64,000 bases of DNA from Pyrinomonadaceae bacterium (GTDB lineage Bacteria; Acidobacteriota; Blastocatellia; Pyrinomonadales; Pyrinomonadaceae). The position numbers and the translations under genes are program-made. Location: assembly GCA_025054715.1 (NCBI GenBank), contig JANWYH010000002.1, positions 124,001 to 188,000 of the forward strand, written 5' to 3'. Of this stretch, positions 50,084 to 56,880 are shown one piece after another. Positions within the stretch are counted from its first letter, which is position 1. Each line of letters begins with the position of its first letter. The notes beneath the pieces were generated by a model. The model did not search any database. It was not told where the DNA came from and saw nothing but the letters and a program-made list of their open reading frames with translations.

Positions 50084-51109
50084 TCAAAACCTAACGTAGT
50101 CCGTAATCAAAAGAATAGTAAGAATCGCAAAGAAAACTAAAATGCCCATTGCAATCATTCCAGCAGCTTCTGTAAGTGCGCTCACCTTGCGTGGATTTTC
50201 GCAAACGTTTCTAGAAACAGTCATTAAACCATATAGAAAGCCTGATAAAAAACCCCCTATATGAGCAAAATTGTCTATTATTCGATAGGCTACTATTCCA
50301 AACGCAAGAACGAAAACTATATTTACAACTATGCTTCTTAAAAAATTCGGCGGTAGATGTTGTCTCCTTCTAAAACCATAAACCGCGAGATAACCCATCA
50401 AACCCATTATCCCTCCGGAAGCACCTACTGATATTCCTTCGGGTAAAAACACAATGCTTGCCAAAGCACCACCAATGATTGATAGAAGAAAAACTATCGC
50501 CATTCTAGCTTTATCTGAAAAAGCCTCAATCAAGCTAGCAAAACCGTAAAAGGCTTGACTGTTGAAGTAAACGTGCAAAAGTCCAGCATGAAGAAAAGCA
50601 GATGTCAATATCCGCCAATATTCATGTTTTTGAATAACATCCGTTTTAACTAGTCCAGCAACAAAAAACGACCTCAAGTTTCCTTCCGCATCAATTATGT
50701 CAGTAATCTGGAAGAAAAAAACAGAGATTATACAAACTAAAATTATGTAAGTATAGGTAGGTCTTACTCTTACAACCTGTGTTAGGAACTTTTCTGCCTC
50801 AGGTGTAAGAATCAAGTCTTCAATTTTCGTTCTGCTGGCTTCATAAAAGCCCCATAAACCAGCTAAAACAAAAAATACACCTATCAGAAAGAAAATATTG
50901 CGAAATAGAAGAGAAAAGAAATCTCTATGAGAAAAACCTGTGGTTTCTGGAAAGCTTGTTAGCAAGGTGACCAAAAAAAGATTGATTCCTAAAATGGTAG
51001 CGCCAATGCAAAGGCTTCTCAAAGCAAATTTTCTAATCTCGGCCTTCTTTTCGGCTAGATATTTTTCTGGATCAAATCTCGGTTCTTTTTCCTCAAGCTC
51101 AAATTCCAT
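50084..51109 (-). CDS. Rhomboid-family intramembrane serine protease
   Basis: The 341-residue integral membrane protein has a cytoplasmic charged N-terminus, a membrane hairpin, then the six-helix rhomboid core and a final helix. The catalytic dyad is S231 in SVGASGGIMGLMG and H283 in FAHIGGFLSGF. HAGLLHVYFNSQAFY supplies the conserved HxxxN of helix 2. Rhomboids cut single-pass membrane proteins within the lipid bilayer; the substrate is unknown. It begins 3 nt after the fabG stop and has no ribosome site, so it is likely translationally coupled to fabG. Confidence 0.9.
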   Translation of the reverse strand: MEFELEEKEPRFDPEKYLAEKKAEIRKFALRSLCIGATILGINLFLVTLLTSFPETTGFSHRDFFSLLFRNIFFLIGVFFVLAGLWGFYEASRTKIEDLILTPEAEKFLTQVVRVRPTYTYIILVCIISVFFFQITDIIDAEGNLRSFFVAGLVKTDVIQKHEYWRILTSAFLHAGLLHVYFNSQAFYGFASLIEAFSDKARMAIVFLLSIIGGALASIVFLPEGISVGASGGIMGLMGYLAVYGFRRRQHLPPNFLRSIVVNIVFVLAFGIVAYRIIDNFAHIGGFLSGFLYGLMTVSRNVCENPRKVSALTEAAGMIAMGILVFFAILTILLITDYVRF

Positions 51110-53165: not shown

Positions 53166-54134
53166 TTAACAAGAAGCTCTTTTTGCAAACCGACTTTTTT
53201 GCCACCATTCAATAGTAATCTTTAAACCTTCCTCAAGACCTACTATTTTTTCATAACCCAGAAGTTCCCTTGCTAGATGGTTGTCGGCTTGAGAGTGTTT
53301 CACATCACCTTTCCTTTCCGGCAGATAATCTGCTTCAATTTCCTCTTTTCCCGTAATTTTTTTGAGAATCGCTAGCAACTCGTTGAGACTTGTTCTTTCC
53401 CCATTCGCAACGTTTATAACATGACCTATGCAACGTTCACTCTGTGCTGCCTTTATGTTCGCATCAACAACATTTGCAACGAAGGTAAAATCTCTAGTTT
53501 GTTCACCATCCCCGTAAATTACAGGTCTTCGGTCACTCATCAAAGCATCTATAAATCTCGATATTACTCCCGAATACATAGAGGAAGGATTTTGTCTAGG
53601 CCCAAAAACATTAAAGTAACGAAGACATACGGTTTGCAATCCATAAACCCGCCAGAAGACTTGACAATAATATTCACCCACAAGTTTCGCAACAGCATAA
53701 GGCGAAAGTGGTTCAGGACGCATGGTCTCTACCTTTGGTAGCGTAGGTTGATCCCCATAAGCCGAACTAGAAGCAGCATAAACGACTCGCCTTACGCCAT
53801 ATTCCTTAGCCTTAACTAACAGATTAAAAGTCCCGTTAACACAGGCATTATGTGTTTCAACTGGATTTTCCACCGAACGTGGAACACTTGGCAATGCAGC
53901 CTGATGAAAAACTATTTCTACCCCTTCTAAAGCCTTCCTTAAAGCATTTTCTTCATTTATATCACCCTCAATAAAATCGAAATCACCTCTGATTTCTTCA
54001 AGATTTTCTCTAAAACCAGTAACAAAATTGTCAATAATTCTAACCTTAGCACCACGCTTGATAAGCTCTTCAGCGAGATTAGAACCAATAAAGCCAGCTC
54101 CACCTGTAACCAAAACCCTCTCCGTTAAAGCCAT
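53166..54134 (-). CDS. NAD-dependent sugar-nucleotide epimerase (WbpP/GalE-like)
   Basis: The 322-residue extended SDR enzyme has the NAD motif VTGGAGFIGSNLAEEL. VFHQAALPSVPRSVENP, the active-site AASSSAYGDQPTLPKVE, the catalytic SPYAVAKLVGEYYC (YxxxK) and RYFNVFGPRQNP follow. The SSAYGD/LPKxE and ALPSVPRSV patterns resemble UDP-N-acetylglucosamine 4-epimerases such as WbpP, and also UDP-glucuronate epimerases. Its place 3 nt after a UDP-sugar dehydrogenase favours an acidic sugar substrate. GGAAG lies 7 nt before the ATG. It likely supplies a precursor for surface polysaccharide. Confidence 0.85.
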   Translation of the reverse strand: MALTERVLVTGGAGFIGSNLAEELIKRGAKVRIIDNFVTGFRENLEEIRGDFDFIEGDINEENALRKALEGVEIVFHQAALPSVPRSVENPVETHNACVNGTFNLLVKAKEYGVRRVVYAASSSAYGDQPTLPKVETMRPEPLSPYAVAKLVGEYYCQVFWRVYGLQTVCLRYFNVFGPRQNPSSMYSGVISRFIDALMSDRRPVIYGDGEQTRDFTFVANVVDANIKAAQSERCIGHVINVANGERTSLNELLAILKKITGKEEIEADYLPERKGDVKHSQADNHLARELLGYEKIVGLEEGLKITIEWWQKSRFAKRASC

Positions 54135-54137
54135 AGA

Positions 54138-55436
54138 CTATCTTCCTACACCGACATATTCAAACCCCATTTCTTTCATGTCCTTAGGCTCATAAATGTT
54201 TCTAAGGTCTGCTATTTTAGGTGACTTCAAAAGACTTTTTACTCTTTCCATGTCAAGAGCGCGGAATTGATTCCATTCCGTAACTATGACTAGAGCATCA
54301 GCTTCCCTAATTGCATCATACTCGTCCTTCGCATAATAAACACAAGAAAGATGTTTCTTGGCTTCCTCCATTGCTGCAGGATCGAAAGCTTTAATCTTCG
54401 CACCTCGTTTTTGTAGTTCGTTTATTATGTAAATGGCAGGAGATTCTCGCATATCGTCTGTTTCGGGCTTAAAGGAAAGCCCTAAAATTGCTATCGTTTT
54501 TCCTTTTAGATCTCCGACGAGTTTCTCTATTTTCGGAATCATCAACTCTTTTTGACGCTCATTTGCTTTAATAACGGCATCTACGATCAAGGTTTCCACT
54601 CCATAAATATCACCAACCTTCGTAAAAGCTCTGGTATCTTTCGGAAAACAAGAACCGCCATAACCAGGTCCCGGATGAAGAAATTTGCGACCAATTCTAT
54701 TATCCATGCCTATACCTTTTGCGACATCATGAACATCACAACCAATAGCATCACACAAGTTTGCAATCTCATTTATGAAAGTGATCTTAGTGGCTAGGAA
54801 AGCGTTAGCGGCATATTTAATTAATTCAGCCGCCTCTAAAGAGGTGATAACAAAAGGGGTTTCTATCAAATACAAAGGCCGATAGAGGTCTTTCATTATG
54901 GCTATAGCTTCCGGATCGTTACTTCCTATAACAACCCTATCGGGCCTCATGAAATCATTTATGGCAGCTCCTTCTCTTAAAAACTCTGGATTTGAAACTA
55001 CCCCAAAGCTGGTCTTTACCTTTTGATGTTCTGAAACAAACTGCCTGAGCCAGCGACCTGTTCCAACTGGAACCGTTGACTTAGTCACCAAAACTTTGTA
55101 TCCATTCATTGCCTCAGCCACATCTTTCGCCGCCTTTTCGTAATAACTCATATCAGGGAAACCGTCTTCCTTTGGCGGTGTTCCTACGGCAAAGAATATA
55201 ACTAGTGCCTGCTCAACTGCAGATTTTATGTCTGTAGTAAAATGAAGTCTGCCATCTCGTAGATTCTTTTCTACGATTGTTTCAAGACCAGGTTCGTAGA
55301 TCGGAATTATTCCTTTTTTTAACTTATCAATCTTCTCTTCATCAACATCAACACAAGTTACTTCCACTCCAAACTCAGCAAAACATGCACCTGTAACTAA
55401 TCCTACGTACCCTGTTCCAATTACCGCTATATGCAT
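54138..55436 (-). CDS. UDP-glucose/GDP-mannose dehydrogenase family protein
   Basis: The 432-residue enzyme oxidises a nucleotide sugar twice, with 2 NAD+, to the uronic acid (UDP-glucuronate if the substrate is UDP-glucose). It has the N-terminal MHIAVIGTGYVGLVTGAC, the FFAVGTPP loop, the catalytic cysteine in GPGYGGSCFPKDTRAF, and the C-terminal domain AILGLSFKPETDDMRESPA. Sequence and length fit UDP-glucose 6-dehydrogenase (Ugd). AAGGAAG lies before the ATG. The epimerase gene follows after 3 nt, giving a two-gene sugar-nucleotide operon. Confidence 0.92.
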   Translation of the reverse strand: MHIAVIGTGYVGLVTGACFAEFGVEVTCVDVDEEKIDKLKKGIIPIYEPGLETIVEKNLRDGRLHFTTDIKSAVEQALVIFFAVGTPPKEDGFPDMSYYEKAAKDVAEAMNGYKVLVTKSTVPVGTGRWLRQFVSEHQKVKTSFGVVSNPEFLREGAAINDFMRPDRVVIGSNDPEAIAIMKDLYRPLYLIETPFVITSLEAAELIKYAANAFLATKITFINEIANLCDAIGCDVHDVAKGIGMDNRIGRKFLHPGPGYGGSCFPKDTRAFTKVGDIYGVETLIVDAVIKANERQKELMIPKIEKLVGDLKGKTIAILGLSFKPETDDMRESPAIYIINELQKRGAKIKAFDPAAMEEAKKHLSCVYYAKDEYDAIREADALVIVTEWNQFRALDMERVKSLLKSPKIADLRNIYEPKDMKEMGFEYVGVGR

Positions 55437-55491
55437 AACTCTTCCTTAAAAAAAACGTTTGTTCAATAATTCACAAGGATTATACAAAATT

Positions 55492-55521
55492 TTTGCGGGC
55501 TATGAAAACACAGCCCGCAAA
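55492..55521 (-). terminator. Hairpin after the first FecR-like gene
   Basis: A 10-bp perfect stem (TTTGCGGGCT at 55492-55501 with 55512-55521) lies 41 nt past the stop of the FecR-like gene. On the minus strand it is followed by AATTTTG. A TATAAT (55484-55479, minus strand) just beyond is a candidate -10 for the dehydrogenase operon. Confidence 0.5.
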
Positions 55522-55561
55522 GGTAAGATTAAGATAAATTTTCGGAGGTTTTCTACAAAGC

Positions 55562-56263
55562 TTATCTAGTTGGACTAACAACAGTAGTAGAACCGGTACT
55601 TGTTGGCTCTTCTCCCCTGGTGCCTACTAAGATTGTCGTTATAACGGCACCGCCTATTCCAAGAAGTATAGCAGCTATTGCCCCTACACCAATTCCTGCT
55701 ACAGGAACCGGAACAGGCGTTCCTGGACGCAGACAAGGCTTACAATTCGGTTGCTGCATATCGCCTGCTATTTCGCCAGCACCAGCTGCCACTTGTTTAT
55801 CTGTTGTTCCAACCCTCATCGTTACAAGCCCAAAGACAGTATCCACATGAGTATGAGAACACTCCACTTCGATTATGAAGTTGTTTTGTTGACCTGCATC
55901 CGCTATGATAGTCGCGTCCTTTGTTGCAAAGGTTGCAGCAATACCAGCATTACTTAAAACAGTGACTTTTCCCGAGTCAACTATACCTACCATGCTCGAA
56001 TCGGTAAACCGAATAGTTAAAGAAGTCTCAGGAGCTAACTCAACTTTACCTGACTTACCTAGGCTTAATATTGCTGTTGAACCTGCTGCCGTTTCTATAC
56101 GACTTCCAGAAACTAAAGTTGCTCCAGAAATAGCACTCTGTCCATTTACGGTTACATTACCTGTAACGGTGATTAAGCCCGTAGCCTGTTGAGCTAAGCT
56201 TAGAGAAGAAAAAAGGACCACGAATAAAAGCATTCCTATGGATTTACTTATTCTGCTTAACAT
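55562..56263 (-). CDS. FecR-like membrane protein with TTVVSPTR tail (paralog 1)
   Basis: The 233-residue exported protein has a signal peptide (SIGMLLFVVLFSSLSLAQ) and a FecR-like all-beta domain (about 25-150: SGATLVSGSRIETAAGSTAILSL, GKVELAPETSLTI, SGKVTVLSNAGI). A region with three cysteines follows (CSHTH, CKPC), then a hydrophobic segment of about 27 residues (VAGIGVGAIAAILLGIGGAV) and a short tail ending GSTTVVSPTR. FecR domains occur in sigma-factor regulators and in polysaccharide-associated surface proteins. No sigma factor is nearby. The start at 56263 is set by AGGAGG 7 nt upstream; the ATG two codons earlier lies too close to it. It is 57 nt downstream of a paralog with the same tail. 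Confidence 0.72.
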   Translation of the reverse strand: MLSRISKSIGMLLFVVLFSSLSLAQQATGLITVTGNVTVNGQSAISGATLVSGSRIETAAGSTAILSLGKSGKVELAPETSLTIRFTDSSMVGIVDSGKVTVLSNAGIAATFATKDATIIADAGQQNNFIIEVECSHTHVDTVFGLVTMRVGTTDKQVAAGAGEIAGDMQQPNCKPCLRPGTPVPVPVAGIGVGAIAAILLGIGGAVITTILVGTRGEEPTSTGSTTVVSPTR

Positions 56264-56319
56264 TTTCATTCCTCCTGAAAAATACTTTAATAGTTTTTAG
56301 CTACACTATCAAGCAAGGT

Positions 56320-56880
56320 TTACCTAGTAGGGCTAACAACGGTCGTTCCACCGCCTATTTGGATATCATTCGAGCCAGAGGTGGCAATTGCGATTGCTAC
56401 TGCTGCCGCACCGCCTAAAATCAAACCCCAAAGCAACCATGCAGCTCCTGCATCATCATCGTCATCATCTTGCTGTTGTGCTGACACAGACTCACCTACA
56501 TTCAATTTCGTCAGACCGCTCGAGGTCTTTACACTAACATTGTTTCCTTCAATAGCTGTAACCTTACCAGCAGAAAGTTCGACAAAAATACCCTTTTCAT
56601 CAAAGGAAACTAAGGCTACCGTCTTAGGGGCTAACTCAATCTTTCCTACTCCACTGATGCTAACTATAGCATTTGAAAATTCATCGGTTGAAATAGTGCT
56701 TTCAGAAAAAATACTCCTGCCTGTACTGACTACTTCCCCGTTAATTTTAACCTTAGAGTCTTCATTACCATTAAGAATGGTTACTTCTCCGGTAAGCTTG
56801 CCAGCAGCAAAAGTCATTGCTGCCAAATTCACCAAGGCCACTATCAACAAACTCAAGCTCATTGGTTTTCGGTTCTTCAT
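56320..56880 (-). CDS. FecR-like membrane protein with TTVVSPTR tail (paralog 2)
   Basis: The 186-residue protein is built as its downstream neighbour: signal peptide (SLSLLIVALVNLAAMTFA), FecR-like beta domain (GRSIFSESTISTDEFSNAIVSI, GKIELAPKTVALV, SAGKVTAIEGNNVSV), a QQQDDDDDD acidic linker, one hydrophobic segment (AAWLLWGLILGGAAAVAIAIA) and the tail GGGTTVVSPTR. Overall identity to the paralog is low, but KxELAPxT and the last eight residues match. GAGGAG lies 12 nt before the ATG. It is the first gene of the pair and is upstream of the sugar-nucleotide operon, so a polysaccharide role is possible. Function unknown. Confidence 0.7.
   Translation of the reverse strand: MKNRKPMSLSLLIVALVNLAAMTFAAGKLTGEVTILNGNEDSKVKINGEVVSTGRSIFSESTISTDEFSNAIVSISGVGKIELAPKTVALVSFDEKGIFVELSAGKVTAIEGNNVSVKTSSGLTKLNVGESVSAQQQDDDDDDAGAAWLLWGLILGGAAAVAIAIATSGSNDIQIGGGTTVVSPTR

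Follow-up and report, generated by a model that had tools for sequence, protein, structure and literature searches.

Within the window, i.e. the whole stretch of 64,000 nucleotides from a soil-type Pyrinomonadaceae bacterium (class Blastocatellia, Acidobacteriota) that was analysed, two neighbouring genes code for proteins with an N-terminal signal peptide, here termed A and B, which both end in the octapeptide TTVVSPTR. A hairpin, a nucleotide sugar dehydrogenase gene and an epimerase gene follow downstream of A, giving rise to the following arrangement.

53166–54134, minus strand: gene of an SDR-type nucleotide-sugar epimerase, next after ugd (nearest to the TviC/GalE models, under their equivalog cut-offs)
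54138–55436, minus strand: ugd, UDP-glucose 6-dehydrogenase (UGDH, a nucleotide sugar dehydrogenase), the conserved gene downstream of A (TIGR03026, 489 bits)
55483–55526, minus strand: conserved, covarying, terminator-like RNA hairpin between A and ugd, with a 13-pair stem at 55492–55521
55562–56269, minus strand: protein A, 235 aa, with signal peptide, FecR/PupR-type β domain, one membrane helix and the C-terminal TTVVSPTR
55565–55588, minus strand: C-terminal motif TTVVSPTR of A
55625–55681, minus strand: predicted membrane helix of A, residues 197–215, with the conserved G207 inside
55754–56188, minus strand: periplasmic FecR/PupR-type (CSS-like) domain of A, residues ~28–172 (AlphaFold2 and Foldseek)
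56320–56880, minus strand: protein B, 186 aa, a paralogue of A with a poly-Asp stretch ahead of the membrane helix and the C-terminal TTVVSPTR
56323–56346, minus strand: C-terminal motif TTVVSPTR of B
56383–56445, minus strand: predicted membrane helix of B, about residues 146–166 (hydropathy and alignment)

A and B share 33% identity across residues 1–110 (E = 2e-9), and in the protein alignment the tail emerges as a separate match of nine out of ten positions. Both proteins are evidently old paralogues of the FecR type. A first-pass annotation had described them as FecR-like, and this description is confirmed at the family level: PF04773 (FecR) is matched by 27 of 34 A orthologues at E ≤ 0.1, with a best value of 9.7e-7, while the window's own A and B, searched singly, stay below the Pfam threshold for this family. 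In an AlphaFold2 model calculated from 34 sequences, residues ~30–172 of A form a domain with a pLDDT of ~97, followed by a helix at 197–215 and a disordered tail. Foldseek relates this domain to PupR (6ovk, E = 7.7e-5) and to a FecR-type protein of Parabacteroides (4m0h, E = 2.4e-4); a profile search of PDB sequences gave no convincing match. By sequence family as well as by fold, A is a FecR protein.

The combination of signal peptide and single helix indicates that the tail of both proteins is probably cytosolic. The charge distribution around the helix of B (−2.58 before, +0.08 after) agrees with this orientation, and that around the helix of A (net +0.72 before, −0.41 after) gives no clear support for it. 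The signal peptides of A and B are alike in most relatives (S-x-x-x-R-K ... YSMVALA), beyond what is expected for signal peptides. In the B orthologues of loci L186, L189 and L199, an EF-hand-like insert (DADKDGKLEC) takes the place of the poly-Asp stretch, which suggests calcium binding by these variants.

The identical ends and the differing codons recorded in the first-pass annotation are both found in the open reading frames. The tail of A is encoded by ACT ACT GTT GTT AGT CCA ACT AGA and that of B by ACG ACC GTT GTT AGC CCT ACT AGG, with synonymous differences at five of eight codons and an unchanged peptide. These silent differences, in combination with the presence of both genes throughout the Pyrinomonadaceae, rule out a recent duplication or gene conversion. 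Since the codons have diverged silently while the peptide stayed the same, the match appears to be kept at protein level, as had been proposed. The tail had furthermore been called invariant. Among 20 pairs compared, exact identity over all eight positions is restricted to the present genome, the tails of the other pairs differing at at least one position; in one subclade the motif is lost from B and the final arginine from A. What is retained across 119 Pyrinomonadaceae genomes is the form [VI][VI]SPx[RK] after the membrane helix, a conserved island rather than a fixed octapeptide. A and B tails of the same genome agree at 5.05 of 8 positions compared to 4.56 in shuffled pairs (P = 0.003, uncorrected for shared ancestry).

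Among 42 non-redundant A sequences, the mean pairwise identity amounts to 0.55 in the last ten residues, 0.45–0.55 in the ectodomain and 0.22 in the linker directly ahead of the tail, with the serine of the tail invariant, the proline conserved to 0.90 and two glycines to 0.83–0.90. For B the corresponding values are 0.60, 0.46 and 0.31. Judged by these identities, the tail is a conserved island after a variable linker, yet it does not rise above the best parts of the ectodomain. It is quite unlikely that the tail has no function and that the likeness is only what two paralogues inherited from their ancestor. Homology of A and B, and an overall tail identity in A similar to that of its ectodomain, are what common descent would predict; however, the codons diverged silently around an unchanged peptide, conservation goes up again directly after the linker, and the quartile of pairs with the greatest divergence retains more identity in the tail than in the rest of the protein (0.57 versus 0.40 in A, 0.66 versus 0.31 in B). 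Occurrence in this pair only and in proportion to overall identity, which the first-pass annotation had named as the outcome speaking against a tail signal, is thus found in part: within the family the complete motif is hardly seen outside A and B, but among the most diverged pairs its conservation exceeds overall identity.

Apart from A and B, the open reading frames of the present genome include no tail carrier. Across the 119 family genomes, a profile of helix plus tail matched almost solely at the A/B locus, and 94 of the 97 matches to a tail-only DNA pattern lie at A/B by coordinates (the reversed pattern, used as control, gave 12 matches). The full motif typically has one to two carriers per genome, and all carriers found in the genomes searched are, by homology, FecR proteins. 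The profile and the tail-only pattern rule out a sorting tag on unrelated proteins in these genomes as well as in the present one. A general sorting or processing tag carried by dozens of unrelated ectodomains, as originally anticipated, is therefore absent from the 119 genomes, and a cognate uncharacterised membrane enzyme did not emerge.

In the present genome, an exosortase (PF09721, E = 2.2e-60) is encoded at G000:C11:188051–188851, and a GlpG-like rhomboid protease is located 5 kb from A/B (window 50084–51109, minus strand). These two genes, the conserved tail after a helix and the polysaccharide context could point to a C-terminal sorting or processing signal for a membrane protease or transpeptidase. 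Such a signal is very unlikely in view of the confinement to FecR homologues and the low number of full motifs per genome. Moreover, the motif is situated C-terminal of the helix and not before it, a basic cluster is lacking, and neither the PEP-CTERM models (searched against A, B and the A orthologues) nor the GlyGly-CTERM model (searched against A and B) gave a match. The motif also persists despite C-terminal extensions, such as VVSPTRGGGSTQGGQ in genome G111 and SPFRGS in G070, and the nearby rhomboid reaches only 46.5 bits with the rhombosortase model, well under the cut-off of 84.

The position of A within its gene neighbourhood is strongly conserved. In the 119 family genomes, an A tail lies directly upstream of ugd at 98 of 110 close ugd matches, separated by 107–1119 bp (median 140), and A is followed by ugd and then by the SDR epimerase in 22–23 of 23 neighbourhoods. 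In a check for ECF sigma factors, ugd and the epimerase were the only genes conserved at these loci, whose neighbours are annotated in part. Most exceptions to the A–ugd linkage are accounted for by tails that have diverged or by contigs that break off at this point; G008 has the epimerase directly after A, and G021 possesses a second ugd without A. The polysaccharide context suggested earlier is thereby borne out: A adjoins ugd and the epimerase family-wide, FecR-tail genes of the sister family adjoin Wza–Wzc, and A and B evidently belong to a setting of polysaccharide-precursor and export genes.

Situated between A and ugd is a conserved RNA hairpin with the consensus GCGGGTCA...TGACCCGC, which reads TTTGCGGGCT...AGCCCGCAAAAATTTT in the window and is followed by a T-rich stretch. 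A strict pattern detects it in 42 of 49 A–ugd intergenic regions of named genomes, the remaining seven being recognised by eye. Changes on both sides of the stem occur at 6 of 12 pairs, 97.7% of the cells are able to pair compared to 89.5% in shuffles, and the covariation score of 0.328 (0.168 shuffled) is reached by none of 500 shuffles; structures slid along the same alignment all score far lower. G–U pairs are found on the gene strand, e.g. 13 U–G at one pair, which favours an RNA read in the direction of ugd. With a model of the hairpin, it is detected in 107 of 119 genomes. Among the sense-strand matches listed, 99 of 110 are located just upstream of ugd at a median distance of 48 bp, six lie after an A gene or near one at a contig edge, and five are found elsewhere. 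At E ≤ 0.1 there was no match in the sister family, at other FecR loci or in a 400 kb sample, and an Rfam search of the A–ugd region gave no match near the gathering score. The hairpin resembles an intrinsic terminator or attenuator, but the conservation of its stem is unusual for such an element. Since a terminator-like element separates the two genes, co-transcription of A and ugd is uncertain. At G108:C200:5151–6270, the gap between A and ugd is extended to ~1.1 kb with a hairpin copy of its own on each side, as if duplicated by an insertion.

Related tails are found on further, divergent FecR proteins, two groups of which belong to the Pyrinomonadaceae. The first, a third FecR paralogue, adjoins mazG (named by eye from the sequence) at five out of five loci (L105, L106, L264, L265, and L266) and displays the tails VASPTR, ISTVR, LIVSPVR, IVVSPSR, and TVSPVR. 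The second, at loci with Wzc-like and O-antigen-ligase-like genes, terminates in NPSPxTP, NSSP, or NPSP. In the sister family, a FecR protein with a C-terminal [IV]VSGFRP is encoded upstream of Wza and Wzc; ugd and an epimerase precede this gene in several genomes, in a gene order that differs from that in Pyrinomonadaceae, and three tandem divergent FecR genes at L262:7946–10527 carry the tails ISGFRP, LSAFR, and LSGFRP. A phylum-wide search for PF04773 returned mostly long FecR proteins that show no comparable tail, a genome scan of the named genomes with B alone as query gave no matches, and the literature searched contained nothing on FecR in Pyrinomonadaceae.

The dipeptide SP is present within the last six residues of 101 of 140 FecR proteins with a C-terminal helix, compared to 7 of 108 other C-terminal-helix proteins and 21 of 1155 remaining open reading frames; background rates were drawn from the fetched loci and from 400 kb sampled in the genome of a relative. 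After clustering of the ectodomains at 45% identity, an SP tail is found in 8 of 16 FecR clusters and in 2 of 32 random background proteins from the 400 kb sample (P = 0.001), where the direction of the enrichment is firm but the exact P is not, due to the small background set and the relatedness of the sequences. The tail core, [VI][VI]SP with mostly R or K at the end, is evidently an ancient conserved short linear motif of one FecR-like family.

Some of the loci sampled contain small proteins with a common DEVLVYDL-type N-terminal part and Cys-rich C-termini (L276:7325–7816, L278:1045–1536, L281:680–1953, and L282:901–1383). They appear PqqD-like by eye, occur twice in tandem in L281, lie in some cases beside an HPr-kinase-like open reading frame, and are possibly encoded by peptide natural-product genes.

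The consensus SP[TSNA][RK], together with the serine that is invariant in A, resembles a proline-directed phosphorylation site (S-P-x-R/K) for a Hanks-type kinase. Such a role is highly improbable, since replacement of serine by threonine was not seen, the SGFRP tail of the sister family contains no SP, and the basic residue is missing in several members. The main alternative to docking is a role of the tail for its own protein, in insertion, topology or stability, e.g. by shielding from tail-recognising proteases, with no specific partner. SP tails on FecR proteins in unrelated genomic contexts, the shortness and predicted disorder of the tail, and the variability of both the final residue and the distance of SP from the C-terminus are in line with this explanation. 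However, we consider it doubtful, because comparable tails are rare on other C-terminal-helix proteins of the same genomes (7/108; 2/32), and because serine and proline are near-invariant while most tail residues drift.

The linkage of the genes makes UGDH and the epimerase attractive as partners of the tail. UGDH as the only partner is nevertheless unlikely, as FecR proteins beside mazG, distant from ugd, and those linked to Wzc share the tail; these relatives rather suggest that several FecR proteins share one partner. We favour docking to such a partner, with a probability of roughly 40%: A and B would be membrane-bound FecR subunits of polysaccharide assembly with a probably cytosolic tail. 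As exported paralogues, they belong to a subfamily of FecR/PupR-domain proteins whose genes, in Blastocatellia, accompany those for polysaccharide precursors and export. The β domain may bind a periplasmic or envelope partner within the polysaccharide machinery, the Gly/Ala-rich helix could oligomerise A with B by means of a GGA-type patch of small residues, and the tail of ~15–20 residues would dock a shared component of the machinery on the cytosolic side. Candidates for this component are UGDH and the epimerase, as enzymes of sugar-nucleotide supply, or a Wzc-like kinase, and docking would hold precursor supply at the assembly site. In E. coli, Ugd is phosphorylated by Wzc, a precedent for a membrane-bound polysaccharide co-factor acting on UGDH (PMC2516531).

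If the docking model is correct, A and B represent FecR-domain membrane proteins of a class not described before, which forms part of exopolysaccharide assembly in Acidobacteriota, the tail could be used as bait for its partner, and a handle would be gained on the coupling of sugar-nucleotide supply to polymer assembly in abundant soil bacteria. Owing to the family-wide linkage to ugd and the conserved hairpin, the model can be tested in Pyrinomonas methylaliphatogenes K22, a relative available in culture that possesses the A/B locus. A wider generalisation, which we regard as unlikely, would be that in Blastocatellia a short C-terminal motif behind the helix (xSP core, SGFRP in one family) forms a docking or sorting code common to FecR-domain membrane proteins of several polysaccharide assembly systems, with the Pyrinomonadaceae pair coupled to ugd via the conserved RNA attenuator hairpin.

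Comparison with known systems places the ectodomain of A/B among the FecR/PupR CSS proteins, by family (PF04773 in 27/34 orthologues) and by fold (6ovk, 4m0h). In classical FecR, an N-terminal cytosolic anti-sigma part precedes the membrane helix and the periplasmic domain. In contrast, A and B start with a signal peptide and carry helix and tail at the C-terminus; an N-terminal cytosolic anti-sigma region is absent from A, where the signal peptide is followed by the β domain from about residue 30 and the helix at 197–215. Moreover, the neighbouring genes encode UGDH and an epimerase or function in polysaccharide export.

PEP-CTERM signals of the exosortase system are defined by Pro-Glu-Pro before the helix and a basic cluster after it (PMC1569441). 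A and B resemble them in being exported, in ending with a helix and a short tail, in their exopolysaccharide context and in the presence of an exosortase gene in the genome, but lack both defining features, and their tail is not found on unrelated proteins in 119 genomes; despite the presence of an exosortase, A and B were thus rejected as its substrates. The GlyGly-CTERM signal of rhombosortases consists of a Gly-rich motif, a helix and a basic cluster (PMC3237569). Likeness to A/B extends to the C-terminal helix region and to the rhomboid gene in the window, whereas the succession of glycine-rich motif, helix and basic cluster is missing and the rhomboid is GlpG-like.

Modulators of the BY-kinase/polysaccharide co-polymerase group (Wzc, CapA/Wzd type) provide a working analogy, with a periplasmic domain, a helix, a cytosolic tail (inferred in A/B) and an action on polysaccharide machinery including UGDH. 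A and B differ from them by the lack of a kinase, of detected homology and of a Wzz-type domain, for which no Pfam or NCBIfam match was obtained in A/B or the A orthologues. For the colanic acid operon of E. coli, a stem-loop attenuator after wzc is cited (PMC2516531), which, as a working analogy only, likewise lies 3' of a membrane-protein gene and ahead of sugar/polysaccharide genes. The hairpin of the window, whose role in attenuation is putative, is distinguished by a stem whose sequence itself is conserved and covaries throughout the family.
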